DNA from: Cliona cf. orientalis
Lineage: Eukaryota; Porifera; Demospongiae; Clionaida; Clionaidae
NCBI GenBank assembly: GCA_963930775.1
Contig: OZ005693.1
Coordinates: 8,182,006-8,246,005 of the forward strand
Direction of reading: 5' to 3'
Length of the DNA stretch: 64,000 nucleotides
The number at the start of each line of letters is the position of its first letter. The stretch's first letter is position 1. Position numbers and translations under genes: made by a program. This document shows, one piece after another, positions 15,234-59,158 of this stretch. The notes under the pieces were generated by a model. It was not told the origin of the DNA and searched no databases. It saw only the letters and a program-made list of their open reading frames with translations.

Positions 15234-15239
15234 CTTTAT

Positions 15240-19646: not shown

Positions 19647-19681
<35 letters not shown>
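19615..19681. repeat. Poly-C and (CT)n simple repeats
   Basis: A run of about 20 C is followed by CCCTCCCTCTTCAT and about 14 CT units, immediately before the exon at 19686. The CT tract may serve as the polypyrimidine tract. Confidence 0.9.
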
Positions 19682-23601: not shown

Positions 23602-25962
23602 TCAATTATGATCAATAACAGTACGCATCCTCGTTTCAATGCAACCACCAACAACCATCATCTCATTGGTTGGGAGGACTGCAACAATACTAAGATATCC
23701 AGCAGTTGGCATGTTGCTGATGAGACCCCAGGAGTTAGTTGTTGGGCTGTACTTGTGAATGGCAGATGAAGGTTTCCTATCTTTATCACATCCACCAACT
23801 ACCAGTAGCTCTCCATTGACAGCTGCACAGGTGGAGTGGTAAGCTGGGGTATCAGCAACTCTGTGCCATATTGCTGATGATGATGGTGATGATCGTAGCA
23901 GTTTTGTCAGTGAGCAGATCAGCACTAACTTGGTCATGCCTTTGTAATTCCATCCTCCCAGCATGTACAGTTGATCTCCATAGATAAAACCTGATGCTAA
24001 AGAGTAGGGGTGAGGGAGGCTGGCCGCTGTTGACCAGACTAGACTTTTAGTGTTCATCACTTCTACTGCGTTAAGCCCATCAGCATATGAAAACCCAATT
24101 GCCCTGCCAGCCACTATGAGGTGCTCCTTTGATGTCACTGCAGTTGTGTCCCGCCTCTTTGTTGGCATGGCAGGGAAGACCTCCTTGTAACCTGGCAGAC
24201 TGAGCAGTTTGTTACCCCGCGCGCATGCGCAAGGGGTAAAGCAATCGGTTTGTCCGTCTGTCGTTGTCGTCGTCGTCGTTGGCACGAAAATCGCCAGATC
24301 TCGAGTTCTAGGCGTCTGTGCATACTATAAGCACAACCCATTGGTAGATATCGGTGAAAAACTGGTTTATACAGGCTTCGAATTGCTCAAAAGGGCTTAC
24401 TAGTGCTACAAATCGTGTATTTTCTGTTCAATATGCCTGTGGTTTATCGACCACACCCACTCTTTAGCATGTTGATGCGACTGCGCATGCTCAAGCTCAG
24501 TGTTGGAAGAGTCGTCAGGTCATAAAACAGCTATGCCGCCGAGTGTTGCAGTACTACGCTACAGTTGCTACAGAGCGTGCGGGGTATGTGCTCTACAGAG
24601 CTCTATGTTTATCCTCATTGAAAACATTCTTACATCCACCAATAGCTGTCAGTTGACCATTGATGATTGCTAAACTACAATATTTGTAGGGATATTCTGG
24701 AAGTTTGCTCCACTTCTTGTTAGATACATCGTAGGAACATGCATACTTCACCATTCCAGTTCATGAAGTAAACCATAAACCCATCCTCCACAGCAGCTCC
24801 CCTGAATATCTTAAATGGTGCCTTGCCACCATCCCTCCAATTTGATGTCATCTTCCTAACTCTGTGTGGGTGTGGCTTGTGGTCTACTTGGAGAGATGGT
24901 TGTATTGGTAATTGTTTCCTTGACTCTCTCTCCTGGAGTTGTCTTCCCCTAACCTGAGCTTGAGAAGGAGGAGGTGGCCGTGCATGGTGGCTTTAGACTT
25001 TGCTGATTCAACTGTTGTCACGTTGCAGTTGTTCCACCTGTCTCTGTAGAGAGTAGTTAGTCTGTTGGATCTCTGCCGTCACTTGCTCTTGTTCTTCCAG
25101 CTGTTTGTTCATTTGTCAAAATCGTCTTTCTCGTGATGCTCTCTCTTCTTGAAGTTGTCTCTCCTCTTGCAACAGTCTATCTCGTTCTTGGAGTTTATTG
25201 TCTTTCTGCTGCAATATTTGATCCTTTTTACGAAGCATTTCATCCTTTTGTCTGTCCTTTTCAAGAATTTGTCTATCCTTTTCTTGCAGCTGCTGTGTTA
25301 GCAGAAGAACTTGATCACTATTCGATTGAACTTCATCTTGTATTTGATGTGTGCTCTCTCTATGCTCCCTGGATTCCTTGAGACCAGCCAGCCTCTGGCA
25401 CAGCTCCTCACTTGAAGGTCGGCCATTCTCTTGGTAATGGAGGCAGTCTACTGCAATCAGTAGCAACATATGGGTAGGATTTATCATATCGATATAATTT
25501 TTCTCCTTTCAGTTTCGAGTACGGGTATGTCTATTGTTCCAGTTGGAGATCTAGAGTCAGGAACGAGTTGATTTCGAGGTCCAGGCTCAGGCACAGTCAG
25601 GTGCACACTTGTATCATGATCACACCCACAGAGAAGCAGTCCAGCTTCTTTGTGTACCTTGGTGGCTCCCTCAGCGCTTCTGGAGGCATGTAAGCCAGCG
25701 TTCCTGGGCACATGGTGAGAGGGGTCATGCTTGGAGCTGCACCAGCTAGCTTGGACATGCCAAAGTCGGTCACTTTAGCTCTTCTCCCAACAATCATCAG
25801 CACATTGTTGCTGGAGAGGTCTCGGTGGATGATGTCATTGGAGTGGAGGTAGGCAATTGCTAAAGCTATATCGTGGCAGATATCCACTTGAACACAGTAG
25901 GCTAGCGACTGCCGTGAGCATTCAAGCATCTTTGTCAAACTCTCGTCAAGCGGTTCCATCAC
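23602..25962 (-). pseudogene. Kinase-kelch gene copy 1, truncated and interrupted
   Basis: It retains kinase residues from MEPLDESLTKML through HRDLSSNNVLM, VTDFGMSKL and YMPPEAL, then coiled-coil and kelch parts. The first ~105 codons and the 5' flank are gone. Family E element 25955-26256 sits exactly at the break, beyond which the usual upstream spacer of the family resumes. A second element (24212-24605) interrupts the kelch region after CQTEQFVT-equivalent sequence. Several frameshifts separate the kinase, coil and kelch segments. The last kelch part is open (about 227 codons after a chimeric start) and ends at 23602. No functional protein is expected. Confidence 0.85.
24212..24605 (+). 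repeat. TTACCCC-type non-autonomous element, copy 3
   Basis: The best-preserved copy: TTACCCCGCGCGCATGCGC...AAGGGGTAA tip hairpin, then GTTTGTCCGTCTGTC, ending GTGCTCTACAGAGCTCTA. It is inserted in the kelch part of the first kinase-kelch copy. The five other kelch copies show the uninterrupted sequence. Confidence 0.85.
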
Positions 25963-26256
25963 GTGATTTAGAAGACCGAAGGGCTCTGTGTAGAATCCCG
26001 AGTGAAGCGAGGGTTCTACTGAGCCCTGAGGTCTTCTAAATCACGTAGAAACAGACTAAGCAGTGTCTAACATGTTTAGATCCTAGCAACAATGCCCAAA
26101 AGCTAGACACATAAACTGCTACCTAACAACAACCCTATAACCATAGGCAAGAAAATTTACATGATTTTCTACAGAGCTTTACATGATTTTCTAAGAAGGA
26201 TAGTTTAACCAATCAGATCACAGTATTTGTTACAAATATGATCTAATGATAATTAT
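25955..26256. repeat. Hairpin element, family E copy 2
   Basis: The core TTTAGAAGACC...GGGCTC...GAGCCC...GGTCTTCTAAA forms a hairpin with an inner AGAATCCCGAGTGAAGCGAG loop region. GTGTCTAAC, then TTTAGATCC and a tail CCAATCAGATCACAGTATTT follow. It replaces the 5' part of the first kinase-kelch copy. Confidence 0.8.
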
Positions 26257-27655: not shown

Positions 27656-29953
27656 CTATAAAAATTTAAGACAAGTTAAAGTAGCAATTTCAATTTTATC
27701 ATTATCAACATCATAATGATTAATGTACCCACCAACAACCATCATCTCATTGGTTGGGAGGACTGCAACAAAACTGCGCCATCTAGCTGTTGGCATGTTG
27801 CTGATGAGATCCCAGGAGTTAGTTGTTGGGTTGTACTTGTGAATGGCAGATGAAGATTTCCCATCTTTATCACGTCCACCAACTACCAGTAGCTCTCCAT
27901 TGACAGCTGCACAGGTGCAGTAGAGGCCAGCTGGGGCATCAGCAACTCTGTGCCATATTGACGATGACGATGATAATGATGATTCTAGTAGTTTTGTCAG
28001 TGAGCAAGTCAGCACTAACTTGGTGTCTTTTCTGTCACCGTAACCTCCCAGCATGTAGAGTTGATCTCCACAGATTGTTCCTGATGCTTCAGTATAGAGG
28101 TGAGGGAGGCTGGCCACTGTTGACCAGACTAGACTTTTAGTGTTCATCACTTCTACAATGTTCACTTCACCACCAATTGTTCCTCCAGCCACTATGAGGT
28201 GCTCCTTTGATGTCAATGCTGTTGTACTCCGCCTCTTTGTTGGCATGGCGGGGAAGATCTCCTTGTAACCTGGCAGACTGAGCAGTTTGTTGGTGTATGT
28301 ATCCTTATTGCTAACATCCTTACATCCACCAATAGCCGTCAGTTGACCATTGACGACTGCTAAACTGCTATAGTGATAGGGATATTTTGGAAGTTTGCTC
28401 CATTTCTTTTCATGTATATTGTAGGAACACACTTCACCATTCCAGTTCATGAAGTAAGCCACATCCCCATCCACCACAGCAGCTCCTCTGTACATCTTGA
28501 ATGGTGCCTTGCCTCCATCCCTCCAATTAAATGTTATCTTCATAATTTTGTGTGGGTGTGGCTTGTGGTCTACTTGGAGAGATGGTTGTACTGGTAATTG
28601 TTTCCTTGACTCTCTCTCCTGGAGTTGTCTTCCCCTAACCTGAGCTTGAGAAGGAGGAGGTGGCTGTGGTAGCTTTAGACTTTGCTGACTCAGCTGTTGT
28701 TGCAGTTGTTCCACCTGTCTCTGTAGAGAGTGGTTAGTCTGCTTGATCTCAGCCGTTACTTGCTCTTGTTCTTTCAACTGTTGAAATTGTGTCTCTCGTA
28801 TCATTCTCTCTTCTTGAAGTTGTCTCTCCTTCTGTTGTAACAACCTATCTTGCTCTTGAATTTCATTATTTTTCTGTTGCAATGCTCTGCGTGCATCTTG
28901 AACTTGTCGATTGTTTGCATCACCCATTTCGTGAATTGTTTTATCCTTTTCAAGAATTTGTCTATCCTTTTCTTGCAACTGTTGTGTCAGCAGGAGAACT
29001 TGATCGCTATTCGATTGAATGTTATTCTGTATTTGACGTATGCTCTCTCTGTACTCCCTGGACTCCTTGAGACCAGCCAGCCTCTGGCACAGCTCCTCAC
29101 TTGAAGGTCGATCCTTCTCCTGGTAATGGAGGCAGTCCACTGCAATTGGTAGCAACATATGGGTAGGACTTATCATGTCAATATGATTTTTTCTCCTTTC
29201 TGTTTCAAGTACGGGCATGTCTGTCATTCCAGTTGGAGATCTAGAGTCAGGAAGAAGTTGATTTCGAGGTCCAGGCTCAGGCCACAGTCGGGTGCACACT
29301 TGTATCATGATCACACCCTCAGAGAAGCAGTCCAGCTTCTTTGTGTACCTTGGTGGATCTCTCAGTGCTTCTGGAGGCATGTAAGCCAGTGTTCCTGGGC
29401 ACATGGTGAGAGGGGTCATGATTGGAGCTGCACCAGCTAGCTTGGACATGCCAAAGTCAGTCACTTTAGCTCTTCTACCAGCAATCATTAGCACATTGTT
29501 GCTAGAGAGGTCTCGGTGGATGATGTCATTGGAGTGGAGGTAGGTGACTGCTAAAGCAATATCATGGCAGATATCCACTTGAACACAATAGGCTAGCGAC
29601 TGTTGTGAGTGTTCAAACATCTTTGTCAAACTCTCATCAAGCAGTTCCATCAGCAGCACTGGTAGTCTGGACTCAGGATCTCTAGTCATGCCGAGGTACT
29701 GCACAATGTTTGGGTGTCGGATGCTTTCAAGAAAATCACACTCCTGTTGAAATCTACTCATGATTGTGCCCACTCCTGGGTCTGCGGGGTCTAGGATTGT
29801 TGGGTGGAGGACTTTAGCAGCACACGGCAGCTGGTCACACTTGGCCTTGTAGACAGCTCCATAGGAGCCATGGCCGAGGGGTTGGCTCTTGTTTATGTGG
29901 AAGCTTTGATATCGAAAGACATGTTGTTGAGCTTGAAGAATTCGATGGGCCAT
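27656..29953 (-). CDS. Kinase / coiled-coil / kelch protein, copy 2, intact
   Basis: Intronless, 765 codons, start MAHRILQAQQ. The kinase domain is at about 20-310: glycine loop GHGSYG (27-32), AAK lysine 47, helix-C Glu 71, HRDLSSNNVL (146-155), DFG 166-168, PPEA (193-196). HRDLSSNN is typical of TKL / plant RLK-Pelle kinases rather than tyrosine kinases. A Gln/Glu-rich coiled coil (LQEKDRQILEKDK...) spans about 315-440, then a Pro linker (PQPPPPSQAQ), then six kelch repeats to the end, each with a ...VxGG or IxGG strand. No signal peptide or TM is seen, so it is likely cytoplasmic. It probably phosphorylates Ser/Thr, with oligomerisation through the coil and ligand binding through the propeller (inference). 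Neighbour copies on both sides share strand and spacer, which indicates tandem duplication. Confidence 0.9.
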   Translation of the reverse strand: MAHRILQAQQHVFRYQSFHINKSQPLGHGSYGAVYKAKCDQLPCAAKVLHPTILDPADPGVGTIMSRFQQECDFLESIRHPNIVQYLGMTRDPESRLPVLLMELLDESLTKMFEHSQQSLAYCVQVDICHDIALAVTYLHSNDIIHRDLSSNNVLMIAGRRAKVTDFGMSKLAGAAPIMTPLTMCPGTLAYMPPEALRDPPRYTKKLDCFSEGVIMIQVCTRLWPEPGPRNQLLPDSRSPTGMTDMPVLETERRKNHIDMISPTHMLLPIAVDCLHYQEKDRPSSEELCQRLAGLKESREYRESIRQIQNNIQSNSDQVLLLTQQLQEKDRQILEKDKTIHEMGDANNRQVQDARRALQQKNNEIQEQDRLLQQKERQLQEERMIRETQFQQLKEQEQVTAEIKQTNHSLQRQVEQLQQQLSQQSLKLPQPPPPSQAQVRGRQLQERESRKQLPVQPSLQVDHKPHPHKIMKITFNWRDGGKAPFKMYRGAAVVDGDVAYFMNWNGEVCSYNIHEKKWSKLPKYPYHYSSLAVVNGQLTAIGGCKDVSNKDTYTNKLLSLPGYKEIFPAMPTKRRSTTALTSKEHLIVAGGTIGGEVNIVEVMNTKSLVWSTVASLPHLYTEASGTICGDQLYMLGGYGDRKDTKLVLTCSLTKLLESSLSSSSSIWHRVADAPAGLYCTCAAVNGELLVVGGRDKDGKSSSAIHKYNPTTNSWDLISNMPTARWRSFVAVLPTNEMMVVGGYINHYDVDNDKIEIATLTCLKFL

Positions 29954-31166: not shown

Positions 31167-33464
31167 TCAATAATGCAAGGTAAAGTTAACGATTTCAATT
31201 GTATTAATACCATGATCAAGCTCTTTATTACTTCCACCAACAACCATCATCTCATTGGTTGGGAGGACTGCAACAAGACTGATCCATCTAGCAGTTGGCA
31301 TGTTGTTGATAAGATCCCAAGAGTTAGTTTTAGGGTTGTACTTGTGAATGGCAGATGAAGGTTTCCAATCTTTATCACATCCACCAACTGTCAGTAGCTC
31401 TCCATTGACAGCTGCACAGGTGGAGCAGTAAGCTGGGGTATCAGCAACTCTGTGCCATATTATTGATGATGATGATGTTGATTGTAGCAGTTCTGTCAAT
31501 GAGCAGGTCAGCACTGACTTGATCCTGCCATTGTCATCCGCTCCTCCCAGCATGTAGAGTTGATCTCCACAGATGGTCCCTGATGCTCTAGAGTAGGGGC
31601 GAGGGAGGCTGGCCACTGTTAACCAGACTAGACTTTTAGTGTCCATCAATTCTACTGTGTTAAGTCTATTGAACACTAACACTCCAATTACCCCACCAGC
31701 CACTATGAGGTGCTCCTTTGATGTCACTGCAGTTGTGCCCCGCCTCTTTGTTGGCATGGCAGGGAAGACCTCCTTGTAAACTGGCGGACTGAGCAGTTTG
31801 TTGGTGTATGTATCCTTATTGTAAGCATTCTTACATCCACCAATAGTCGTCAGTTGACCATTTATGACGGCTAAACTACTAAACTGATAAGGACATTTTG
31901 GAAGTTTGCTCCACTTGTTGCTAGATACATTATAGGAACACACTTTACCATTCCAGTTCATGAAGTAAGCCACATCCCCATCCACCACAGCAGCTCCTCT
32001 GTACATCTTGAATGGTGCCTTGCCTCCATCCCTCCATTTTAATGATATCTCCCTAACACTGTGTGGGTGTGGTTTGTGGTCTACTTGGAGAGATGGTTGT
32101 ACTGGTAATTGTTTCCTTGACTCTCTCTCTTGGAGTTGTCTTCCCCTAACCTGAGCTTGAGAAGGAGGAGGTGGCTGTGGTGGCTTTAGACTTTGCTGAC
32201 TCAGCTGTTGTTGCAGTTGTTCCACCTGTCTCTGTAGAAAGTGGTTAGTCTGCTGGATCTCTGCCGCCATTTGCTTTTGTTCTTTCAGCAGTCGAAATTC
32301 TCTCTCTCGTATGATTCTTTCTTCTTGAAGTTGTCTGTCCTTCTGTTGTAACAACCTATCTCGCTCTTGAATTTCGTTATTTTTCCGTTGCAATGCTCTG
32401 CGTGCATCTTGAACTTGTTGATCGTTTGCATCACCCATTTCGTGAATTGTTTTATCCTTTTCAAGAACTTGTCTATCCTTTTCTTGCGACTGCTGTATCA
32501 GCAGGAGAACTTGATCACTATTCGATTGAATGTTATCCTGTATTTGCCGTATGCTCTCTCTGTACTCCCTGGACTCCTTGAGACCAGCCAGCCTCTGACA
32601 CAGCTCCTCACTTGAAGGTCGATCCTTCTCCTGGTAATGGAGGCAGTCCACTGCAGTCGGTAGCAATATATGGGTGGGATTAATCTTGTCGATGTGATTT
32701 TTTCTCCTTTCAGTTTCGAGTACGGGTAAGTCTGTCATTCCAGTAGGAGATCTAGAGTCAGGAACGAGTTGATTTCGAGGTCCAGGCTCAGGCCACAGTC
32801 GGGTGCACACTTGTATCATGATCACACCCTCAGAGAAGCAGTCCAGCTTCTTTGTGTACCTTGGTGGCTCCATCAGTGCTTCTGGAGGCATGTAGGCCAG
32901 CGTTCCTGGACACATTGTGAGAGGGGTCATGCTTGGAGCTGCATCAGCTAGCTTGGACATACCAAAGTCGGTCACTTTAGCTCTGCTCCCAGCAATCATC
33001 AGCACATTGTTGCTGGAGAGGTCGCGGTGGATGATGTCATTGGAGTGGAGGTAGGCAACTGCTAAAGATATATCATGGCAAATATCAACTTGAACACAGT
33101 AGGCTAGTGACTGTTGTGAGCGTTCAAGCATCTTTGTCAAACTCTCATCAAGCAGTTCCATCAGCAGCACTGGTAGTCTGGACTCAGGATCTCTAGTCAT
33201 GCCGAGGTACTGCACAATGTTTGGGTGTCGGATGCTTTCAAGAAAACCACACTCCTGTTGAAACCTGTCCATGATCTTGCCTGCTCCTGGATCTGCGGGG
33301 TCTAGGATTGTTGGATGGAGGATTTTAGCAGCACAGGGCAACTGGTCACACTTGGCCTTGTAGACAGCTCCATAGGAGCCATGGCCGAGGGGTTGGCTCT
33401 TGTTGATGTGGAAACTTTGGTAGCGAAAGATATGTTGTTGAGTTTGAAGCATTTGATGGGCCAT
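31167..33464 (-). CDS. Kinase / coiled-coil / kelch protein, copy 3, intact
   Basis: Intronless. I take the start at MAHQML (33464), where the other copies begin; an in-frame ATG four codons upstream (MRSAM...) is not conserved. All kinase landmarks are present (GHGSYG, CAAKIL, HRDLSSNNVL, VTDFGMSKL, YMPPEAL). The coil differs in length and repeats from copy 2 (QVLEKDKTIHEMGD, LQRKNNEIQERD). The six kelch repeats differ chiefly at short loop positions: CPYQFSS, KRRGTT, RPYSRASG, TPAYCST, TARWISL, and after AGG, where it reads VIGVLVFNRLN. It ends ...TIEIVNFTLHY. Function and location as for copy 2. The Ser run in the fourth or fifth repeat is shorter (STSSSS). Confidence 0.9.
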   Translation of the reverse strand: MAHQMLQTQQHIFRYQSFHINKSQPLGHGSYGAVYKAKCDQLPCAAKILHPTILDPADPGAGKIMDRFQQECGFLESIRHPNIVQYLGMTRDPESRLPVLLMELLDESLTKMLERSQQSLAYCVQVDICHDISLAVAYLHSNDIIHRDLSSNNVLMIAGSRAKVTDFGMSKLADAAPSMTPLTMCPGTLAYMPPEALMEPPRYTKKLDCFSEGVIMIQVCTRLWPEPGPRNQLVPDSRSPTGMTDLPVLETERRKNHIDKINPTHILLPTAVDCLHYQEKDRPSSEELCQRLAGLKESREYRESIRQIQDNIQSNSDQVLLLIQQSQEKDRQVLEKDKTIHEMGDANDQQVQDARRALQRKNNEIQERDRLLQQKDRQLQEERIIREREFRLLKEQKQMAAEIQQTNHFLQRQVEQLQQQLSQQSLKPPQPPPPSQAQVRGRQLQERESRKQLPVQPSLQVDHKPHPHSVREISLKWRDGGKAPFKMYRGAAVVDGDVAYFMNWNGKVCSYNVSSNKWSKLPKCPYQFSSLAVINGQLTTIGGCKNAYNKDTYTNKLLSPPVYKEVFPAMPTKRRGTTAVTSKEHLIVAGGVIGVLVFNRLNTVELMDTKSLVWLTVASLPRPYSRASGTICGDQLYMLGGADDNGRIKSVLTCSLTELLQSTSSSSIIWHRVADTPAYCSTCAAVNGELLTVGGCDKDWKPSSAIHKYNPKTNSWDLINNMPTARWISLVAVLPTNEMMVVGGSNKELDHGINTIEIVNFTLHY

Positions 33465-35683: not shown

Positions 35684-38010
35684 TCAATAGAATAATAGAA
35701 AATAATCAAGATTGGCTGAAATTAGTAATTCAAATTTATCAAGAATATCATGCATCATTGTTCCAATGCTCACACCAACAACAATTATCTCATTGGTTGG
35801 GAGAACTGCAACAAGACTGTACCATCTAGCAGTTGGCATGTTGCTGATAAGATCCCAGGATTCCATGTACTTGTTGGGTTATACTTGTGAATGGCAGATG
35901 AAGGATTATGATCTCTGTCACATCCACCAACTGCCAGTAGCTCTCCATTGATAGCTGTACAGGTAGAGCGATAAGCTGGGGCATCAGCAACTCTGTGCCA
36001 TATTGATGATGATGATGATGATGATTGTAGTAGTTCTGTTAGTGAGCAGGTCAGCACTGACTTGGTCTTGTCTTTGTCATCTGTTCCTCCCAGCATGTAG
36101 AGTTGATCTCCACAGATGGTCCCTGATGCACTGAGGTAGGGGTGAGGGAGGCTGGCCACTGTTGACCAGACTAGACTTTTAGTGTCCATCACTTCTACTG
36201 TGTTAAGCTTATCTGATAATCCAATTGCCCCACCAGCCACTATGAGGTGCTCCTTTGATGTCACTGCAGTTGTGCTCCGCCTCTTTGTTGGCATGGTGGG
36301 GAAGACCTCTTCATAACCTGGCAGACTGAGCAGTTTGTTGGTGTATGTATCTTTGTTGATAATATCCTTATATCCACCAATAGCTGTCAGTTGACCATTG
36401 ACGACTGCTAAACTACTAGAACGATAGGGATATTTTGGAAGTTTGCTCCACTTTTTGCTAGACACATTGTAGGAACACACTTCACCATTCCAGTTCATGA
36501 AGTAAGCCATATCCCCATCCACCACAGCAGCTCCCCTGCTTATCTTAAATGGTGCCTTGGCACCATCCCTCCAGTTTAATGTCACCTTCCTAACTGTGTG
36601 TGGGTGCGGCTTGTTGTCTACTTGGAGAGATGGTTGTACTATTAATTGTTTCCTTGACTCTCTCTCCTGGAGTTGTCTTCCCCTAACCTGAGCTTGAGGA
36701 GGAGGAGGTGGCTTTAGCCTCGGACTTTGCTGACTCAGCTGTTGTTGCAGTTGTTCCACCTGTCTCTGTAGAGAGTGGTTAGTCTGCTGGATCTCTGCTG
36801 TCACTTGCTCTTGTTCTTCCAGCTATTGGTTCAACTGTCGAAGCTGTCTCTCTCGTAATGCTCTCCCTTCTTGAAGTTGTTTTTCCTTCTGTTGCAATAG
36901 CCTATCTCGTTCTTGAATTTTGCTATCTTTCTGTTGCAGTGCTCTATCTTTTTCTTGAACGCTTCTCAATACTTCAGTGTCCCTTTCAAGAAGCATTCCA
37001 TCTTTCTGTTGCAATGATCTGTCCTTTTCTTGCAGCTGCTGTGTCAGCAGGAGAATTTGATCATTATTCGATTGAACTCCATTGTGTATTTGCTGAAGTC
37101 TCTCTCTGTACTCTCTGGACTCCTTGAGACCAGCCATCCTCTGACACAGCTCCTCACTTGATGGTCTACTTCTCTCCTGGTATTGGAGGCAGTGGTTAAT
37201 GATTGGCACAAGAGGGTGGTCACGCTGAATCATGTCGATGTGGTTCTTTCTTCTCTTGGTCTCAAGCACAGGAACTTCCACTTCACCAGTAGGAGAAGTT
37301 GGGTCAACTCTTCGTTCAGTCCGCGGTCCAGGCTCAGGCCATGATCGGGTGCACACTTGTATCATGATCACACCCTCAGAGAAGCAGTCCAGCTTCTTTG
37401 TGTACCTTGGTGGCTCCCTCAGCGCTTCTGGAGGCATATAAGCCAGTGTTCCTGGGCACATGGTGAGAGGGGTCATGCTTGGAGCTGCACCAGCTAGCTT
37501 GGACATGCCAAAGTCAGTCACTTTAGCTCTTCTCTCAGCAATCATCAGTACATTGTTGCTGGAGAGGTCTCGGTGGATGATATCATTGGAGTGGAGGTAG
37601 GGGACTGCCAAAGCAATATCATGGCAAATATCCACTTGAACACAGTAGGCTAGCGACTGTTGCGAACGTTCAAGCATCTTTGTCAAACTCTCGTCAAGCA
37701 GTTCCATCAGAAGCACTGGTAGTCTGGACTCAGGATCTCTAGTCATGCCGAGGTATTGAACAATGTTTGGATGTCGGATGCTTTCAAGAAAACCACACTC
37801 CTGCTGAAACCTGTCCATGATCTTGCCCGCTCCTGGGTCTGCGGGGTCTAGGATTGTTGGGTGGAGGACTTTAGCAGCACAGGGCAGCTGGTCACACTTG
37901 GCCTTGTAGACAGCTCCATAGGAGCCATGGCCGAGGGGTTGGCTCTTGTTGATGTGGAAGCTTTGGTAGTGAAAGATATGTTGTTGAGCTTGAAGCAATC
38001 GATGGGCCAT
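35684..38010 (-). pseudogene. Kinase / coiled-coil / kelch gene copy 4, two lesions
   Basis: Start MAHRLLQAQQ. The kinase domain is intact (GHGSYG, AAKVL, HRDLSSNNVL, DFGMSKL). The segment after the kinase differs from the others (RTERRVDPTSPTGEVEVPVLE). A TAG replaces the second Gln of the LNQQLEEQEQ motif at about 36822, separating kinase plus coil (395 codons) from the kelch half. A frameshift near 35870 (within SAIHKYNPT...W) breaks the sixth repeat. Both lesions are recent-looking single events in an otherwise well-kept sequence. A truncated kinase plus coil protein could still be made. The kelch half keeps its copy-specific loops (YRSSS, LSASG, YRST). Confidence 0.85.
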
Positions 38011-43829: not shown

Positions 43830-43977
43830 CCCCGTGGTAGGCCCTCCTGCATGCATGAAGTTTTTTTACATAACTGTAATGTAATCCATAATTAAATGCA
43901 TAGCAGCAATATTTACTCATCAGGCTCAAACGCATACAGATTAGGTGGTCAACTATTCCATATAAGCCATTCATTGA

Positions 43978-46900: not shown

Positions 46901-47125
46901 GATGTTCACTAACTGAGGCAGCTTCAACGAAGGCGCTGTGGTTAATGGAAATACTGATGAGACAAATATAATCAGATGCAATGCTCATCAGGTCACTGAC
47001 ATATACAGATTAGGTGGTCACCTATGCACTATGAGCCATTTTATTGACTGCAGCAGCTTCAACGAAGGGGCTGTGGTTAGTGGAAACATTAATGAGATAA
47101 GCATAATTAGATGCAAAACTCACTA
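43978..47125 (+). repeat. Satellite array, forward orientation (~145 bp monomer)
   Basis: About 20 monomers. Each contains GTTCACTAACTGAGGCAGC, TTCAACGAAGGGGCTGTGG, TTAGTGGAAACACTGATGAG, CAGATGCAATGCTCATCAG and ACAGATTAGGTGGTCA. Spacings of the GTTCAC start are 146, 144 and 144 at 44246, 44392, 44536 and 44680. Each monomer can form two hairpins: CACTAAC/GTTAGTG with CAGC/GCTG inside, and CTGATGAG/CTCATCAG. Truncated monomers joined at CATCAGGGGCTG recur at 44767, 45114 and 45936, and the block 44008-44500 recurs near 45938-46430. One partial monomer at 45318-45403 is inverted. Confidence 0.95.
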
Positions 47126-48054
47126 GGTGCAAAGTTACAAAAGTCTAGGTCGCCAGTCGTCACAGAGGCTGGTTGAGCATGCATGTCCACTTACGTTTAG
47201 TTAATGTATATTCACCATGCATGCATGGTTATTGTAAGGGCTTTTAGCTAGTTAGTCTATCAATAATATAGTGTATTGTGTCTATATCTGCTGCTATAAA
47301 AATAGGAGAAATGACGAGAATTCAGTTGAGGAGATCCTTTCAAAAGTGATTACACAGGAAGCAAACTGGAGATCCAGCCTTGCCACAGCAACGTGGATAG
47401 GTATGCGGCAGAAATAGAAATAGTAAAGGTATAGTGTGAGCTTGAGAAGCACCAGGCCCTAGAATTGTTAAGAGGGGAAAATGCAGGTCAGCTTAAGTTC
47501 CTCGATGTACTAGAGGGTGAGCTGTATAAACAGCAAACATGCTCCAAATACCATGATCCTTTCAGTTGTTTTCAGTCAGATTGTGATATAAATTCAGGGC
47601 TACAGCACCTACCTGGGAGTCATCTTGTTGACCAGCCTTGTTCAACAGATGTACCATTTCTGTTATTTACACGCATATAGGGCACCATCCAAGAATCAGT
47701 GAGAAAATCACCATTCTATTTGCTCTATGGTAGAGATCCGTGCTTACCTACTGAAAATTTCCTAAGGAATATACCAAACTATGAAGTAGATGTTGGAGAT
47801 TACCATTTACCTGTCAGAAGCTTGCAATTGGAGGTTGGCAAAGAGCAGCGCCCTGCTGAGCTAGCTCAAGTCAAGCAGAAAGAAATGTATGACAAAGACT
47901 CCCAACTGCCACAGTATGGAATTGGTGCTAGATTATTTATGGTGTTTATACCAAATGGGAACAAAGACATGATATTTAGCCATGCTATTCCTGTGCATGG
48001 GCCATGTTGCATTCTTAATCGCACACCAAACAATGCAAAAGTTTTTCTCATATA

Positions 48055-49080: not shown

Positions 49081-49704
49081 TATCCCTGAACTTCCAGATA
49101 GCACAAACAAAAGCGCAGCCATCAAAAGATGACACTCAAGAACAGAACGCTGCTGCTACTTGAAAGAAGATCCTATACCTTCTATATATAGTGGGAGGGA
49201 GTGTAGGAACTGTAGATATTTGATTTTATGTTGAATTAAGTAAGTTATGTGGATATTTGATTTTTATGTGGAAGTTATGATAATATTATTATTATCGTTG
49301 AGTTATTGTATCGGAATTCACCATGGACTGTAAGAAGCATTGTAAGGGCTATTAGTATTAGCTGTTAGTCAGTCTACTATAGTCAATAATATTATTGTGT
49401 ATTGTACCTCTGCTGCTATCAATATTAATACAAAGCTCCTCTGCAACATGGTCTACCCTCAACAGTTTGCTTATAGCTACCTAAGATCCTGAGCTTTAGC
49501 TACATGATAGCGTGCATTGTCACTTGATAGATAGTTTACCTTCTCGATCACTTCCTTTAACACTTATATATAATCAGTAATTTAAAGTTACAGGTTGAGA
49601 TTGCAGATGAAAATTAATTATGTTGCAGTTACAGGAGCAGCAGTATCAGCATGTTTATTAGAAAGAGCAGGTAGAAATTCTCTTTAATTTGAATAGGGCA
49701 ATTA

Positions 49705-52700
49705 GTGCAACATAGTTGACCACCTAATCTGTATGTCTTTAAACCTGATGAGCATTGCATCTGATTATACTTGTCTCATCAGTGTTTCCACTAACCACAG
49801 CCCCTTCGTTGAAGCTGCCGTAGTTAGTAAACATCAATAAAATGGCTCATGATCATAGTGCATAAGTGACCACCTAATCTGTATGTCTTTAAACCTGATG
49901 AGCATTGCATCTGATTATACTTGTCTCATCAGTGTTTCCACTAACCACAGCCCCTTCGTTGAAGCTGCCGCAGTTAGTAAACATCAATAAAATGGCTCAT
50001 GATCATATTGCATAAGTGACCACCTAATCTGTATGCATTTGAGCCTGATGAGCATTGCATATGATCATACTTGTCTCATCAATGTTTCCACTAACCACAG
50101 CCCCTTCGTTGAAGCTGCCTTGGTTAGTGAACATCAATAAAATGGCTCATAGTGCATAGGTGACCACCTAATCTGTATACCATTGAACCTGATGAGCATT
50201 GCATCTGATTATACTTGTCTCATCAGTGTTTCCACTAACCACAGCCCCTTCGTTGAAGCTGCCGCAGTTAGTGAACATCAATAAATTTAATGGTTCATAT
50301 TTTTGCATAACTGACCATAATCTGTATGCCTTTGAGCCTGATGAGTATTGCATCTAATTATGCTCGTCTCATCAGTGTTTCTACTAACCACAGCCCCTTC
50401 GTTAAAGTTGCGGCAGTTAGTGAACATCAAGAGGATGGCTAATAATGCATAGCTGACCACCTAATCTGTTACAACTTTGCATCTAGTGAGAACTGCATCT
50501 GATTATACTTGTCTTATCAGTGTTTCCACTCACCACAGCCCCTTCATTGACGCTGCGGCAGTTAGTGAACATCAATGAAATAGCTCATAATACATAGCTG
50601 ACAACCTACGTCATTTCTCCTATTTTTATAGCAGCAGATATAGACACAATACACCATATTATTGATAGACTAACTAGCTAAAAGCCCTTACAATAACCAT
50701 GCATGCATGGTGAATATACATTAACTAAACGTAAGTGGACATGCATGCTCAACCAGCCTCTGTGACAACTGGCGACCTACACTTTTGTAACTTCGCACCT
50801 GGTGAGTTTTGCATCTAATTATGCTTATCTCATTAATGTTTCCACTAACCACAGCCCCTTTGTTGAAGCTGCTGCAGTTAGTGAACATCAATAAAATGGC
50901 TGTCTCACCTCATCTGTATATGCCAGTGACCTGATGAGTATTGCATCTGATTATACTTCTCTCATCAGTATTTCCACTAACAACAGCCCCTTCATTGAAG
51001 CTGCCTCAGTTAGTGAACATCAATATTATAATGGGTCATAGTGCATAGGTGACCACACCTAATCTGTATACCATTGAACCTGATGAGCATTACATCTGAT
51101 TATACTTGTCTCATCAGTGTATCTACTAACCACAGCCTCTTCGTTGAAGTTCCCGCAGTTAGTGAACATCAATAAAATGACTCATAGTGCATAGGTGACC
51201 ACCTAATCTGTATGCATTTGAGCCTGATGAGCATTGCATATGATTATACTTGTCTCATCAGTGTTTCCATTAACCACAGCCCCTTCGTTGAAGCTGCCGC
51301 AGTTAGTAAACAGCAATAAAATGGCTCATAGTGCACAGGTGATCACCTAATCTGTATGCATTTGAGCCTGATGAGCATTGCATATGAATATACTTGTCTC
51401 ATCAGTGTTTCCACTAACCACAGCCCCTTCGTTGAAGCTGCCTCAGTTAGTGAACATCAATAAAATGGCTCATAGTGCATAGGTGATCACCTAATCTGCA
51501 TGCATTTGAGCCTGATGAGCATTGCATATGATTATACTTGTCTCATCAGTGTTTCCACTAACCACAGCCCCTTCGTTGAAGCTGCCTCAGTTAGTGAACA
51601 TCAATAAAATGGCTCAGGTGACCACCTAATCTGTATACCATTGAACCTGATGAACATTGTATCTGATTATACTTGTTTCATCAGTGAACATCAATAAAAT
51701 CGCTCATAAATGTGTAGCTGACCACCTAATCTGTTGCAACTTTGCATCTAGTGTGTACTGCATCTGACTATGCTTGTCTTATCAGTGTTTCCACTAACCA
51801 CAGCCCCTTCGTTAAAGCTGCGGCAGTTAGTGAACATCAATGAAATGGTTTATAATGTGTAGCTGACCACCTAATTTATTACAACTTTGCATCAGCTTCT
51901 TAGACTAGTGAGTACTAGCTACGTCTAATTATGCTTGTCTCATCAGTGTTTCCACTAACCACAGCCCCTTCATAGAAGTTGCGGCAGTTAGTGAACATCA
52001 ATAAAATCTCTCATAAATGTGTAGCTGACCACCTAATCTGTTGCAACTTTGCATCTAGTGTGTACTGCATCTGACTATGCTTGTCTCATCAGTGTTTTCA
52101 CTAACCACAGCCCCTTCATTGAAGCTGCGGCAGTTAGTGAACATCAATAGGATGGCTAATGTTGCATAGCTGACCACCTAATCTGTTACAACGTTGCATC
52201 TAATGAGAACTGCATCTGATTATACCTGTCTTATCAGTGTTTCCACTAACCACAGCCCCTCCATTAAAGCTGCGGCAGTTAGTGAACATCAATGAAATGG
52301 CTCATAATGCATAGCTGACAACCTAGTCTGTTACAATTTTACATCTAGTGAGTAATGCATCTAAATGATAATATTATGCTTGTCTCATCAGTGTTTCCAC
52401 TAACCACAGCCCCTTCATAGAAGTTGCGGCAGTTAGTCTCGGAACATCAATAAAATTGCTCATAAATGTGTAGCTGACCACCTAATCTGTTGCAACTTTG
52501 CATCTAGTGTGTACTGCATCTGACTATGCTTGTCTTATCAGTGTTTCCACTAACCACAGCCCCTTCGTTAAAGCTGCGGCAGTTAGTGAACATCAATGAA
52601 ATGGTTTATAATGCGTAGCTGACCACCTAATCTATTACAACTTTGCATCAGCTTCTTAGACTAGTGAGTACTAGCTACGTCTAATTATGCTTGTCTCATC

Positions 52701-55120
52701 AGTATTTCCACTAACCACAGCCCCTTCATAGAAGTTGCGGCAGTTAGTGAACATCAATAAAATCGCTCATAAAATTAATGTGTAGCTGACCACCTAATCT
52801 GTTGCAACTTTGCATCTAGTGTGTACTGCATCTGGCTATGCTTGTCTCATCAGTGTTTCCACTAACCACAGCCCCTTCGTTAAAGCTGCGGCAGTTAGTG
52901 AACATCAATGAAATGGTTTATAATGCGTAGCTGACCACCTAATCTATTACAACTTTGCATCAGCTTCTTAGACTAGTGAGTACTAGCTACGTCTAATTAT
53001 GCTTGTCTCATCAGTGTTTCCACTAACCACAGCCCCTTCATAGAAGTTGCGGCAGTTAGTGAACATCAATAAAATTGCTCATAAATGTGTAGCTGACCAC
53101 CTAATCTGTTGCAACTTTGCATCTAGTGTGTACTGCATCTGACTATGCTTGTCTTATCAGTGTTTCCACTAACCACAGCCCCTTCGTTAAAGCTGCGGCA
53201 GTTAGTGAACATCAATGAAATGGTTTATAATGCGTAGCTGACCACCTAATCTATTACAACTTTGCATCAGCTTCTTAGACTAGTGAGTACTAGCTACGTC
53301 TAATTATGCTTGTCTCATCAGTGTTTCCACTAACCACAGCCCCTTCATAGAAGTTGCGGCAGTTAGTGAACATCAATAAAATTGCTCATAAATGTGTAGC
53401 TGACCACCTAATCTGTTGCAACTTTGCATCTAGTGTGTACTGCATCTGACTATGCTTGTCTTATCAGTGTTTCCACTAACCACAGCCCCTTCGTTAAAGC
53501 TGCGGCAGTTAGTGAACATCAATGAAATGGTTTATAATGCGTAGCTGACCACCTAATCTATTACAACTTTGCATCAGCTTCTTAGACTAGTGAGTACTAG
53601 CTACGTCTAATTATGCTTGTCTCATCAGTGTTTCCACTAACCACAGCCCCTTCATAGAAGTTGCGGCAGTTAGTGAACATCAATAAAATCGCTCATAAAA
53701 TTAATGTGTAGCTGACCACCTAATCTGTTGCAACTTTGCATCTAGTGTGTACTGCATCTGGCTATGCTTGTCTCATCAGTGTTTCCACTAACCACAGCCC
53801 CTTCGTTAAAGCTGCGGCAGTTAGTGAACATCAATGAAATGGTTTATAATGCGTAGCTGACCACCTAATCTATTACAACTTTGCATCAGCTTCTTAGACT
53901 AGTGAATACTAGCTACGTCTAATTATGCTTGTCTCATCAGTGTTTCCACTAACCACAGCCCCTTCATTGAAGGTGCGGTTGTTAGTAAACATCAATAGAA
54001 TGCCTAATAATGCATAGCTGACCACGTAATCTGTTACCACTTTGAGTACTGCATCTAATTATGCTTGTCTCATCAGTGTTTCCACTAACCACAGCCCCTT
54101 CATTGAAGCTGCGGCAGTTAGTGAACATCAATGAAATGGTTTATAATGCGTAGCTGACCACCTAATCTATTACAACTTTGCATCTAGTGTGTACTGCATC
54201 TGACTATGCTTGTCTCATCAGTGTTTCCACTAACCACAGCCCCTTCGTTAAAGCTGCGGCAGTTAGTGAATGAAATGGTTTAGCTATAATGCGTAGCTTA
54301 CCACCTAATCTATTACAACTTTGCATCAGCTTCTTAGACTAGTGAGTACTAGCTACGTCTAATTATGCTTGTCTCATCAGTGTTTACACTAACCACAGCC
54401 CCTTCATTGAAGCTGCGGCAGTTAGTGAACATCAATAAAATCGGTCATAATGTATAGTTGACCACCTAGTCTGTTACAACTTTGCATCTATAGTGAGTAC
54501 TGCATGTAATTATGCTCGTCTCATCAGTGTTTCCACTAACCACAGCCCCTTCATTGAAGCTGCGGCAGTTAGTGAACATCAATAGGATGGCTAATATTGC
54601 ATATCTGACCACCTAATCTGTTACAATGTTGCATCTAGTGAGAACTGCATCTGATTATACCTGTCTTATCAGTGTTTCCACTAACCACAGCCCCTCCGTT
54701 AAAGCTGCGGCAGTTAGTGAACATCAATGAAATGGCTCATAATGCATAGCTGACAACCTAGTCTGTTACAATTTTACATCTAGTTAGTAATGCATCTAAA
54801 TGATAATATTATGCTTGTCTCATCAGTGTTTCCACTAACCACAGCCCCTTCATTGAAGGTGCGGCTGTTAGTAAACATCAATAAAATGCCTAATAATGCA
54901 TAGCTGACCACCTCATCTGTTACAACTTTGCACCTAGTGAGTATTGCATCTCATTATGCTTGTCTCATCAGTGTTTCCATTAACCAAAGCACCTTAGTTA
55001 AAGCTGCGGCAGCTAGTGAATATCAATAAAATGTATAACTGACCACCTCATCTGTTATGCCTTATAATTTTTTAGTGTTACATGCATCTATTAAATTTAT
55101 GCGACAGACAGCTGTTAGTG
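49705..55120 (-). repeat. Satellite array, reverse orientation with higher-order units
   Basis: The same monomer as 43978-47125 but reversed (GACCACCTAATCTGTATG, CTTGTCTCATCAGTGTTTCC, ACTAACCACAGCCCCTTCG, GCAGTTAGTGAACATCAA). About 38 monomers. From about 52450 to 53900, two monomer types alternate (TTGCAACTTTGCATCTAGTG and CATCAGCTTCTTAGACTAG), giving a ~310 bp dimer repeated about five times with few changes, at about 52456, 52786, 53087, 53395 and 53710. The far end decays. Confidence 0.95.
50605..50795 (-). repeat. Inverted duplicate of the left array/LTR junction
   Basis: The reverse complement of 47120-47320, covering the end of the forward array and the presumed first LTR remnant (CATGCATGCATGGTTATTGT, CTGCTGCTATAAAAATAGG). 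It is embedded within the reverse array. It shows that one arm arose by inverted duplication of the other after the LTR element had landed. Confidence 0.8.
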
Positions 55121-55967: not shown

Positions 55968-56005
55968 CTCACTAACGGCGACGTTCACTAACCACGACAC
56001 TACAG
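55968..56005 (-). repeat. Right inverted repeat bounding the satellite block
   Basis: CTCACTAACGGCGACGTTCA and CTAACCACGACACTACAG are the reverse complement of 43531-43568. Outside it, 56200-56320 shares short motifs with the left border region. Confidence 0.85.
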
Positions 56006-56199
56006 CTTGAGCCGGTTGACCTTCACCTGCCATGTGCTCGACTGAATAGGGAAATCCCCCCGAGTGCGAGCTCGCCAAAGAAAGCGAACCGAGAAAATCG
56101 CCATATCTCATCGATAGTCCACGATGTCTTCTACGCTAGGTTTGAATTCTGGGTCCCAACACCCTGTCATGTGAGCTAAACTTTTTGAAACAGTTTCAC

Positions 56200-56275
56200 A
56201 GCAATTACATCATAGGTTTCATCATAAATTTCATCATAGATTTCATCATCATTTCATCATAATTTCATCATAGCG
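56200..56275. repeat. TTTCATCATA short tandem repeat
   Basis: Units of TTTCATCATAA/G are repeated about six times. The flanking CATAGGTTTCATCATAA also occurs at the left border (43337). Confidence 0.8.
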
Positions 56276-56554
56276 AGAGCCGAATTCTTAGTTTCTAATT
56301 GGGACTCTGGACGTAACGTAATAACATTGTACGTTGCCCATGCACTTATGAATTGACGACCTTTACCTACAAAGAGCTCAGGTAAGTAGTTGAAATACCA
56401 CATGGCATGATATTGTACATACATGTGTACTTGTAAGGGATCAATAGATGGCAAAAGCACAATTTTTTAATAATAAGATAAAGCTATCCCTTCACCAAGA
56501 AAACTAGATATCGAGATCTGTTGATTTCTATGAATAACAATAATGCAACTAAAT

Positions 56555-56875
56555 GCAAGTTAGACACTGAAGCCAAGGGATCTACAGGATTTAGAATACT
56601 GAAGACACTGATATAAAATCCCGAAGGTGAAGCCTGAGGGTTTTATAAGTGTCTGAAGTATTCAAAAGACTGTAGATCCCATTGGCTGAAGTGTCTAACT
56701 TGTTTAGACTCGAGCATGCTGTTGCTTAGTAACTTCTTTTATGTTGTTGCCTAAAGAACTAGCTTTCTAAGTAGAGGGATTCTAAGTAGAGGGGTTCTAA
56801 GTATTAAACTTAGAACCCTTGTTTTTAACCAATCAAATCACAGTATTTGTGACAACTAGAGTCTAACTATATGGA
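56555..56875. repeat. Hairpin element, family E copy 4
   Basis: AAGTTAGACACTGAAGCCAA pairs with TTGGCTGAAGTGTCTAACTT (56681-56702), with an inner hairpin around AAATCCCGAAGGTGAAGCC. A tail has CCAATCAAATCACAGTATTT. It lies just downstream of the sixth kinase-kelch gene. Confidence 0.8.
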
Positions 56876-56989
56876 GACAATAGCACATATTATACAAGAA
56901 GTAAACAAAAACGGATCATCAATGGAAAAATCAGACTACTGAGACGGACTACCAGGTTCTACATGTACATATTGTGTAGTCTAATCTGT

Positions 56990-59158
56990 TTAAGATATCC
57001 TATTAGTAATTTCAATTGTATCAAGATCATCACCCTTCATTTTAGTGCAACCACCAACAACCATCATCTCATTGGTTGGGAGGACTGCAACAAGAGTATA
57101 ATATCTAGCAGTTGGCATGTTGCTGATGAGATTCCAGGAGTCTGCTGTTGAGTTGTACTTGTGAATGGCAGATGAAGGCTTGTCACCCTTATCACATCCA
57201 CCAACTGCCAGTAGCACTCCATTGACAGCTGCACAGGTGGAGCGGTAAGCTGGGATGTCAGCAGCTCTGTGCCATATTGATGATGATGATGATTGTAGCA
57301 GTTCTGTCAGTGAGCAGGTCAGAACTGACTTGGTATTGCCTTTGCCATCCGCTCCTCCCAGCATGTAGAGTTGATCTCCACAGATGGTCCCTGATGCAAA
57401 AGAGTAGGGGTGAGGGAGGCTGGCCACTGTTGACCAGACTAGAGTTTTAATATCCATCACTTCTACTGTGTGAAGCCCATTGAACACTCCAATTATCCCA
57501 CCAGCCACTATGAGGTGCTCCTTTGATGTCACTACAGTTGTGTTCCGCCTCTTTGTTGGCATGGCGGGGAAGATCTCCTCGTAACCTGGCAGACAGAGCA
57601 GTTTGTTGGTGTATGTATCCTTGTTGCCAAGTGCTTTACATCCACCAATAGCTGTCAGTTGACCATTGACGACTGCTAAACTACTATAGTAATATGAATA
57701 TTCTAGAAGTTTGCTCCACTTTTTGCTAGACACATTGTAGGAACACACTTCACCATCCCGGCTCATGAAGTAAGCCACATCCCCATCCACCACAGCAGCT
57801 CCCCTGAACATCTTGAATGGTGCCTTGCCACCATTTCTCAAGTTTAGTATCATCTTCTTAACTGTGTGTGGGTGTGGCTTGTGGTTTGAACTTCGCTGAC
57901 TCAGCTGTTTTTCCAATTGTTCCAACTGTCTCTGTAGAGAGTGGTTAGTCCGCTGGATCTCTGCCGTCACTTTCTCTTGTTCTTCCAGTTGTTGGTTCAA
58001 CTCTCGATGCTGTGGCATTAACTCTAGATCTTGAAGCTGTCTCTCCTTCTGTTGTAATAGCCTATCTCGTTTTTGGATTTCATTGTCTTTCTTCTGCAAT
58101 AATCTATCTTTTTCACGAAGCATTTCGTCTTTCTGTTGTAATGATCTATCCTTTTTAAGAACTTGTCTATCCTTTTCTTGCAGCTGCTGTGTCAGTAGGA
58201 AAACTTGATTGTTATTCGATTGAACTGCATCCTGTATTTGATGTGTGTTCTCTCTATACTCCCTGGACTCCTTGAGACCAGCCAGCCTCTGGCACAGCTC
58301 CTCACTTGAAGGTCGATCATTCTCCTGGTAATGGAGGCAGTCCACTGCAATCGGTAGCAACATGTGGGTAGGATTTATCTTATCGATATGATTTTTTCTC
58401 CTTTCAGTTTCAAGTATGGGCATGTCTGTCATTCCAATTGGAGATCTAGAGTCAGGAACAAGTTGATTTCGAGGTCCAGGCTCAGGCCACAGTCGGGTGC
58501 ACACTTGTATCATGATCACACCCTCAGAGAAGCAGTCCAGCTTCTTTGTGTACCTTGGTGGCTCCCTCAGTGCTTCTGGAGGCATGTAGGCCAGCGTTCC
58601 TGGGCACATGGTGAGAGGGGTCATGCTTGGAGCTGCACCAGCTAGCTTGGACATGCCAAAGTCGGTCACTTTAGCTCTTCTCCCAGCAATCATCAGCACA
58701 TTGTTGCTGGAGAGGTCTCGGTGGATGATATCATTGGAGTGGAGGTAGGCGACTGCTAAAGCTATATCGTGGCAGATATCCACTTGAACACAGTAGGCTA
58801 GCGACTGTTGTGAGCGTTCAAGTATCTTTGTCAAACTCTCGTCAAGCAGTTCCATCAGCAGCACTGGTAGTCTGGATTCAGGATCTCTAGTCATGCCGAG
58901 GTACTGCACAATGTTTGGGTGTCGGATACTTTCAAGAAAACCACACTCCTGTTGAAACCTGTCCATGATCTTGCCCACTCCTGGGTCTGCGGGGTCTAGG
59001 ATTGTTGGGTGGAGGATTTTAGCAGCACAGGGCAGCTGGTCACACTTGGCCTTGTAGACAGCTCCATAGGAGCCACGGCCGAGGGGTTGGCTCTTGTTGA
59101 TGTGGAAGCTTTGATAGTGAAAGACATGTTGTTGAGCTTGAAGCATTCGTTGGGCCAT
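56990..59158 (-). CDS. Kinase / coiled-coil / kelch protein, copy 6, intact
   Basis: Intronless, 722 codons, start MAQRMLQAQQ. The kinase domain is complete (GRGSYG glycine loop, CAAKIL, HRDLSSNNVL, VTDFGMSKL, YMPPEAL). The coil (QVLKKDRSLQQKDEMLREKD...) is shorter, and the proline/RGRQLQERESRKQL linker seen in the others is missing: RSSNHKPHPH joins directly to the kelch part. Six kelch repeats follow with their own loop residues (MFRG, SYYYSS, KRRNTT, HPYSFASG, IPAYRST, TARYYTL). It is separated from copy 5 by the ~13 kb satellite block, yet keeps the same strand, upstream block (59185-59225) and downstream motif (GAATTGACGACC, 56350). It was therefore part of the original array. No membrane segment is seen. 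Confidence 0.9.
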   Translation of the reverse strand: MAQRMLQAQQHVFHYQSFHINKSQPLGRGSYGAVYKAKCDQLPCAAKILHPTILDPADPGVGKIMDRFQQECGFLESIRHPNIVQYLGMTRDPESRLPVLLMELLDESLTKILERSQQSLAYCVQVDICHDIALAVAYLHSNDIIHRDLSSNNVLMIAGRRAKVTDFGMSKLAGAAPSMTPLTMCPGTLAYMPPEALREPPRYTKKLDCFSEGVIMIQVCTRLWPEPGPRNQLVPDSRSPIGMTDMPILETERRKNHIDKINPTHMLLPIAVDCLHYQENDRPSSEELCQRLAGLKESREYRENTHQIQDAVQSNNNQVFLLTQQLQEKDRQVLKKDRSLQQKDEMLREKDRLLQKKDNEIQKRDRLLQQKERQLQDLELMPQHRELNQQLEEQEKVTAEIQRTNHSLQRQLEQLEKQLSQRSSNHKPHPHTVKKMILNLRNGGKAPFKMFRGAAVVDGDVAYFMSRDGEVCSYNVSSKKWSKLLEYSYYYSSLAVVNGQLTAIGGCKALGNKDTYTNKLLCLPGYEEIFPAMPTKRRNTTVVTSKEHLIVAGGIIGVFNGLHTVEVMDIKTLVWSTVASLPHPYSFASGTICGDQLYMLGGADGKGNTKSVLTCSLTELLQSSSSSIWHRAADIPAYRSTCAAVNGVLLAVGGCDKGDKPSSAIHKYNSTADSWNLISNMPTARYYTLVAVLPTNEMMVVGGCTKMKGDDLDTIEITNRIS

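Follow-up and report, generated by a model that had tools for sequence, protein, structure and literature searches.

Variable loop residues on the predicted ligand face of clustered kinase-kelch proteins in the sponge Cliona cf. orientalis

Introduction

A window of 64,000 nucleotides from the sponge Cliona cf. orientalis (GCA_963930775.1, contig OZ005693.1, forward-strand positions 8,182,006 to 8,246,005) carries six genes that join a kinase, a coiled coil and a kelch propeller. They lie at 23602-59158, all on the minus strand, and are referred to here as copies c0 to c5. An uninterrupted reading frame from the ATG to the end is present only in c1, c2, and c5; c0, c3, and c4 are broken. An initial annotation of this DNA listed short strings, just before a kelch strand in each of the propeller blades, that differ from copy to copy, and proposed a diversifying recognition family with a shared output. 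The listed strings do occur in the sequence. The locus raises the question of where in the protein the copies differ, whether selection accounts for the differences, and what kind of system such genes would form. Our analysis found extreme change at single codons in two sets of loops beside a conserved kinase. We consider it moderately probable that the genes form a tandem family of intracellular IRAK/TKL-like kinases that evolves by birth and death and whose ligand face is diversifying.

Location of the variable residues

The kelch domain of c2 was modelled with AlphaFold from an alignment of eight rows, consisting of the three intact copies, pieces of the broken copies (c4 in two), and one bacterial kelch protein. 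The model (mean predicted local distance difference test score, pLDDT, 85.3; predicted template modelling score, pTM, 0.85) contains 24 strands, interpreted here as six four-stranded blades, the last of which gains its final strand from the N-terminal end. Foldseek matched the model to NS1-BP, KLHL20, KLHL12, and KEAP1 with template modelling scores (TM-scores) near 0.7 and E values of 4e-20 to 6e-17 among the 50 matches listed. By sequence, the closest solved propellers were the designed SAKe proteins, KLHL12, and KLHL3, followed by KEAP1 further down. In an antiparallel four-stranded blade, the loops joining strands D and A (DA) and B and C (BC) lie on one face, and the AB and CD loops on the other; the faces of our model were assigned from this strand order and not measured on coordinates. 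In KEAP1, the face with the substrate pocket is built by the DA and BC loops (PMC4668279).

At least four different residues among the copies were found at 22 of the 276 classified kelch codons. These fell into the DA (6/29) and BC loops (12/53), with none in the AB loops (0/15), one in the CD loops (1/30), and three in the strands (3/149). The DA and BC loops together thus held 18 of 82 such codons, compared with 4 of 194 in the rest of the kelch part (Fisher p 1.9e-7). Five of the 12 BC columns belong to the last loop, which is not reliably aligned; with the poorly aligned C-terminal end excluded, the counts were 13/75 and 3/189 (p 9e-6). Codons with any change were spread more widely (DA 18/29, BC 37/53, AB 1/15, CD 17/30, strands 57/149).

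Each of the six blades has one variable DA column, at c1 amino acids 488, 527, 576, 622, 678, and 726 (coordinates of all codons refer to c1, minus strand; residues are given in the order c0 to c5). The column is hypervariable in blade 1 (28490..28492, residue 488; F, Y, Y, S, R, F), blade 2 (28373..28375, residue 527; K, H, Q, R, Q, Y), blade 4 (28088..28090, residue 622; L, E, R, S, D, F), and blade 6 (27776..27778, residue 726; L, R, I, Y, I, Y). The variable column of blade 3 (28226..28228, residue 576; D, S, G, S, S, N) had a site-model posterior below 0.8, and that of blade 5 (27920..27922, residue 678; H, Y, C, R, S, R) adjoins an indel and was masked in the site models. Hypervariable BC-loop codons were found in blade 2 (28310..28312, residue 548; F, S, Y, I, F, G), in blade 3 directly after the GG pair (28178..28180, residue 592; A, T, V, A, M, I), in blade 4, whose loop (28025..28042) has three of them (residues 638, 642, and 643), and in blade 5 (27860..27862, residue 698; R, G, W, H, N, D). 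The initial annotation was therefore right in placing the variation on the KEAP1-type ligand face, and in assigning one position per blade as far as the DA loops are concerned. It overlooked the BC loops, which vary as much, and its description of the sequence between the DA points as almost fixed does not hold, given that 16 of the 22 hypervariable columns lie elsewhere (12 BC, 1 CD, 3 strand).

The change at the variable codons is extreme and codon-precise. Base diversity was 0.59 inside the variable codons and 0.20-0.23 at a distance of 1-4 bases; farther off, it was 0.07 at 5 bases, 0.20 at 6, and 0.03-0.15 at 7-24. The codon of residue 698, for instance, reads AGG, GGG, TGG, CAT, AAT, and GAC across the six copies, between neighbours that are nearly fixed.

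Tests for selection

Pairwise counting over the 15 pairs gave ratios of non-synonymous to synonymous substitution rates (dN/dS) of 0.18-0.62 for the kinase and 0.56-1.30 for the kelch part. In site models of the kelch part (257 codons, six copies), the comparison of M8a with M8 gave twice the log-likelihood difference (2dlnL) as 106 on the best tree, 103 on the second tree, and 126 on a star tree, with about 6% of the codons at dN/dS 13-14. For the three intact copies, the value was 26. The corresponding kinase values were 1.9 (six copies) and 0 (three copies).

Because multi-base mutations are known to produce false signals of selection, the models were refitted with double and triple changes. 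The kelch signal then amounted to 65.7 and 64.2 for six copies on two trees and to 7.8 for the three intact copies, and the kinase value for six copies was 0. The M1a/M2a value observed for the intact copies, 7.86, was reached in 2 of 100 null simulations. Multi-base mutation as the sole cause is thus rejected for six copies, and less strongly for three.

When codons were assigned to fixed classes, dN/dS with six copies was 1.96 in DA loops, 1.63 in BC loops, 0.68 in AB and CD loops, 0.50 in strands, and 0.40 in the kinase; with three copies, the corresponding values were 2.37, 1.69, 1.07, 0.45, and 0.24. With multi-base mutations allowed, the DA loops gave 1.64 (p 0.0095) and the BC loops 1.37 (p 0.047) for six copies, and the DA loops 2.01 (p 0.011) for three. 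The kinase stayed at 0.22-0.40 across fits and is under purifying selection. Its domains had been described as nearly the same in all copies; they are conserved, but not constant, as intact pairs are 92-94% identical in the kinase and 76-79% in the kelch part.

By the loop assignment based on the AlphaFold model, 10 of the 11 codons found by the six-copy site models lie in DA or BC loops. In the three-copy set (posterior >0.8), 8 of 13 sites do so. The initial annotation had expected site models to place dN/dS above 1 on a single face of the modelled propeller. A kelch class near 13, absent from the kinase, was indeed found, and the six-copy sites agree with the expected face; the three-copy sites agree only in part, and the excess becomes marginal or loses significance once the synonymous rate is left free (see below). 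Neither a scatter of variable sites over the propeller nor loop values of dN/dS well below 1 were observed.

As a yardstick for the ligand face, we used the 22 KEAP1 pocket residues listed in PMC9150106. By spacing arithmetic that leans on the KEAP1 repeats, 19 of the 22 map to four places per blade, namely the residue before strand A, the next residue, and positions 1 and 6 following the double glycine. Counted from the double glycines of the cluster proteins (in blade 1 from the matching MN pair), the equivalent places comprise 24 codons, 19 of them analysable. This set contains 8 of the 11 six-copy site-model codons (Fisher p 2.6e-8), and the remaining three (548, 642, and 698) are each the fifth residue after GG, adjoining the set. 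Shifting the set by one residue left 6/11 (N-terminal direction) or 2/11, and shifts of 2-10 residues left 0-3/11; as the blades differ in hairpin length, the DA register carries an uncertainty of about one residue. On the model and by analogy, the variable residues match the ligand-contact positions of KEAP1 and would form the ligand face here.

Architecture and integrity of the copies

The intact copies are single-exon genes of 722-765 residues. Copy c1 (27656-29953; 765 residues; Pfam PF00069 1.7e-38, Kelch_1 2.9e-21) consists of a kinase (29078..29953; residues 1-292), a Gln-rich coiled coil with a Pro-rich linker (28559..29077; residues 293-465, assigned from sequence), and the six-bladed kelch propeller (27659..28558; residues 466-765, assigned by Pfam and the homologous c2 model). 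Copy c2 (31167-33464) shares the architecture of c1; in c5 (56990-59158; 722 residues), the linker before the propeller is shorter.

PF00069 was found in all three intact proteins (E 1.7e-38, 5.2e-39, and 6.2e-40), the match starting at residue 20-22, and Pfam matched kelch repeats in all three as well. GxGxxG, K47, HRD, and DFG, which we take to be the catalytic motifs of the kinase, are invariant across the intact copies in the alignment. Judged by these matches, the intact copies have a kinase fold with its catalytic motifs, and among solved structures the kinase ranks closest to IRAK4 in sequence similarity (phmmer 3.7e-24 for c1). In Pfam searches with E up to 1, neither a Death domain nor a BTB or BACK domain was matched in any of the three proteins. 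Hydropathy scans found no hydrophobic N-terminus in the three; 19-residue windows above 1.6 were absent from c1 and c5, and the single stretch just above 1.6 in c2 lies within the propeller. With no hydrophobic N-terminus and no clear membrane segment, the intact proteins are likely to be intracellular.

The stretch between kinase and kelch is probably a coiled coil. The full-length AlphaFold model was poor (pLDDT 37) and was used only for one long helix, 299-422. The M0 estimate of dN/dS for the coil (1.19) was set aside because of indels in the coil alignment; simple counting gave 0.34-0.69 there.

The broken copies are c0 (23602-25962), which lacks the 5' part of the kinase and has frameshifts, a stop, and an insertion of about 0.4 kb in blade 2; c3 (35774-38010), with an in-frame TAG in the coil and a frameshifting insertion between blades 5 and 6; and c4 (40175-42443), with two 1-base deletions in the kinase and stops in blades 2 and 6. 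The initial annotation overlooked this damage. Since only c1, c2, and c5 are intact, several of its strings come from broken copies: RRD, YSLAS, YHST, and YLSI from c0, ISRG, YRSSS, YLSAS, and WYSL from c3 (WYSL behind the frameshift), and MRMG, YTDAS, and YSST from c4. For the same reason, the shared output that it ascribed to the family could apply only to the three intact copies.

Upstream of the ATG, c1 and c2 are similar over roughly the last 270 bases, and the remaining copies are only weakly alike. Searches of the window for RNA families and tRNAs gave no matches. The insert in the kelch part of c0 (24214-24609) ends in ACCCCGC...GCGGGGT and has an inverted copy, 85% identical, at 22591-22994; going by these sequences, the two are a small terminal-inverted-repeat element. 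Between c4 and c5 lies a satellite of ~145-base units in two oppositely oriented blocks (43914-47316 and 49703-55038).

Interpretation and alternatives

For a family with a diversifying ligand face, the following mechanism can be proposed. The DA and BC residues would bind a ligand, peptide or protein, that is not the same for every copy or shifts with time. Through the coiled coil, the proteins may pair or cluster, so that ligand binding would gather the kinases, which could then phosphorylate one another or a common downstream target. The family grows by duplication, and many of its copies decay. By analogy, a role in defence or self-recognition is the most likely setting; the present results do not separate defence, self-recognition, reproduction, and substrate choice. 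If the reading is true, a kelch surface near saturated with change beside a conserved kinase would be a new recognition scaffold for animals without antibodies, and the three intact, expressible genes supply a directly testable set of putative contact residues. A broader version is possible, though we regard it as rather doubtful: an early-branching animal would have a large, genome-wide, individually variable set of intracellular receptor kinases, whose hypervariable recognition surface would be the kelch propeller instead of leucine-rich repeats or immunoglobulin domains, with about two variable contact points per blade round the ring.

Several results weigh against a diversifying ligand face. 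Half of the copies are broken, and neither a Death nor a TIR match in Pfam links the proteins to a known immune pathway. In the three-copy set, five of the 13 sites belong to neither DA nor BC loops (three in CD loops, one at a strand end, one before the first strand). In fixed classes with multi-base mutations, the BC loops of the three intact copies are not significantly above 1 (1.39, p 0.18), and dN/dS of the AB and CD loops is itself near 1 in these copies. The best kinase and kelch trees disagree, by small likelihood margins, and in view of this gene conversion may have occurred among the copies.

The most serious of these points concerns the synonymous rate, which is raised 1.6-2.3-fold overall at the variable sites. 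When it was left free, the six-copy rates relative to the other kelch codons were 1.63 for DA and BC loops and 1.72 for the kinase (joint p 0.007); the respective three-copy rates were 1.72 and 1.07 (p 0.29). This lowers the dN/dS of the DA and BC loops to 1.3 (six copies) and 1.04 (three copies). For the KEAP1-equivalent set, the synonymous factor is 2.3, and dN/dS is 2.36 (p 0.043) with six copies and 1.58 (p 0.45) with three. Counting gave a ratio of non-synonymous to synonymous differences per site (pN/pS) of only 1.3 for the KEAP1-equivalent set, 0.8 for the other DA and BC codons, 0.75 (six copies) or 1.1 (three copies) for AB and CD loops, 0.4-0.6 for strands, and 0.2-0.3 for the kinase. 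At unchanged residues, the synonymous divergence per pair was 0.22-0.23 within two codons of variable sites (16 codons only), 0.04-0.07 at a distance of 3-10 codons, and about 0.10 farther away. A mutation hot spot or a homogenised framework may lie behind the raised rates. Near saturation, the synonymous/non-synonymous split is hard to estimate from six sequences. With a free synonymous rate, dN/dS above 1 is thus marginal for six copies and not significant for three. Selection, of uncertain strength, is the best explanation of the codon change.

The most probable of the alternatives is one that we consider unlikely without dismissing it: the propeller would be a docking arm that picks the substrate of the kinase, and copies would diverge together with their substrates, for example reproductive proteins. 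Such a function would agree with the conserved kinase and with KEAP1, in which this face selects the substrate of an attached enzyme complex (PMC4668279). Near-saturated codons on a low background divergence suit an arms race better, but the data do not separate the two.

A somewhat smaller probability is given to relaxed constraint, by which the loops tolerate change, the cluster is decaying, and the pattern is drift. The broken copies, the variation of the CD loops on the opposite face (any change in more than half of their codons), and the class-specific synonymous rates of the intact copies, under which neither the KEAP1-equivalent set nor the DA and BC loops stand clear of 1, would all fit such a process. 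However, the site models reject dN/dS ≤1 in the intact copies even with multi-base mutations allowed, at least four residues occur in only 1 of 45 AB and CD codons compared with the 18 of 82 in DA and BC loops, and drift is unlikely to saturate single codons beside nearly fixed neighbours.

It is less probable again that old variation sits on a homogenised frame. Gene conversion in a larger family would keep the framework alike and selection would keep ancient loop differences, so that the true rate would be below the model estimates. The synonymous divergence beside the variable codons and the raised synonymous rates of the DA and BC loops and of the KEAP1-equivalent set are what this would predict. 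Usual conversion tracts are longer than single codons, and the resolution seen here is finer; moreover, the kinase and kelch trees differ only by small margins, and selection at the loops would still be required.

Diversity-generating retroelements change template adenines only and keep the third codon base; codon-targeted mutagenesis in their manner is most improbable here. Of the 14 listed columns, 12 vary at the third base, which a template-adenine mechanism does not fit, and the cluster is rejected as a target on this ground, even though the columns of residues 548 and 678 read NNC in all six copies, the pattern expected of such a mechanism. Nor was a further copy of c1 kelch DNA found elsewhere in the window (best match outside the six copies, E 2); a reverse transcriptase was not searched for, Pfam scans having covered chosen frames only.

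Neighbouring sequences

The cluster is flanked by two segments, 16737-19950 and 61527-64000, that are 87-91% identical where they align; both contain a frame with an aldehyde dehydrogenase match. A receptor-like kinase (best Pfam match PF07714) has exons at 10185-14822 on the minus strand, and at 10185-14201 (minus) the PF07714 kinase exons adjoin a frame with a membrane-like segment. These exons and the aldehyde dehydrogenase pieces point to eukaryotic, most probably animal, DNA. The upstream end of this gene (14695-15388) is 79% identical to 7589-8251. A frame of 395 amino acids at 3490-4677 contains several segments of strong hydrophobicity, with 28 windows above 1.6, and has no Pfam match; on visual inspection, it looks like a pannexin/LRRC8-type channel. 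The open frame of 219 amino acids at 60018-60674 (minus) is probably not a gene but an inverted repeat, because it has a stretch in common with the plus-strand frame 60053-60334.

Comparison with known systems

A diversifying kinase-kelch family was not found among the literature matches listed, in a search whose coverage leaves out most subscription journals. Protein-guided scans of viral and of bacterial/archaeal contigs, collections without animal genomes as such, found no relative of the whole protein. A 67-residue query found one bacterial kelch protein (L001) in the bacterial/archaeal contigs; scans of the viral contigs with this query and with L001 found nothing.

Kelch propellers are known as surfaces that pick ligands, mostly in conserved proteins. 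The BTB-BACK-kelch adaptors of the KEAP1/KLHL kind share with the cluster proteins the six-bladed kelch propeller (TM-score about 0.7), and the cluster proteins vary at the positions and in the loops (DA and BC) by which KEAP1 contacts its ligand. They differ in that the cluster proteins match neither BTB nor BACK and have a kinase in the same chain in place of the link to Cul3. Furthermore, the ring of KEAP1 is closed by a C-terminal A strand (PMC4668279), whereas that of the cluster propeller is apparently closed by an N-terminal D strand, as suggested by the strand order of the model. The SAKe proteins, which match the propeller best in both sequence and fold, are artificial designs. Such designs tolerate loop change.

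IRAK/Pelle kinases of the TKL group resemble the cluster proteins in the kinase domain, which is nearest IRAK4 by sequence; the cluster proteins have no Death domain match, and their kinase is N-terminal with a kelch propeller at the C-terminus. Kelch domains have been described in a few Entamoeba kinases (excerpt of PMC2939887) and in one Leishmania kinase (excerpt of PMC1266030). These proteins, compared by description only, likewise combine kinase and kelch in one chain, and the excerpts describe no diversifying tandem family. In sponges given microbial molecules, kelch-motif gene expression falls, and the excerpt of PMC6208332 describes no link to a kinase.

The overall design proposed here can be compared with the MATH-BTB and F-box adaptors of nematodes and the NLRs of plants. 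In these families, a conserved output is joined to a positively selected recognition domain, the genes form birth-and-death clusters, and the output is ubiquitin ligation or cell death. The sponge cluster differs from them in its domains, and its output is presumably phosphorylation.

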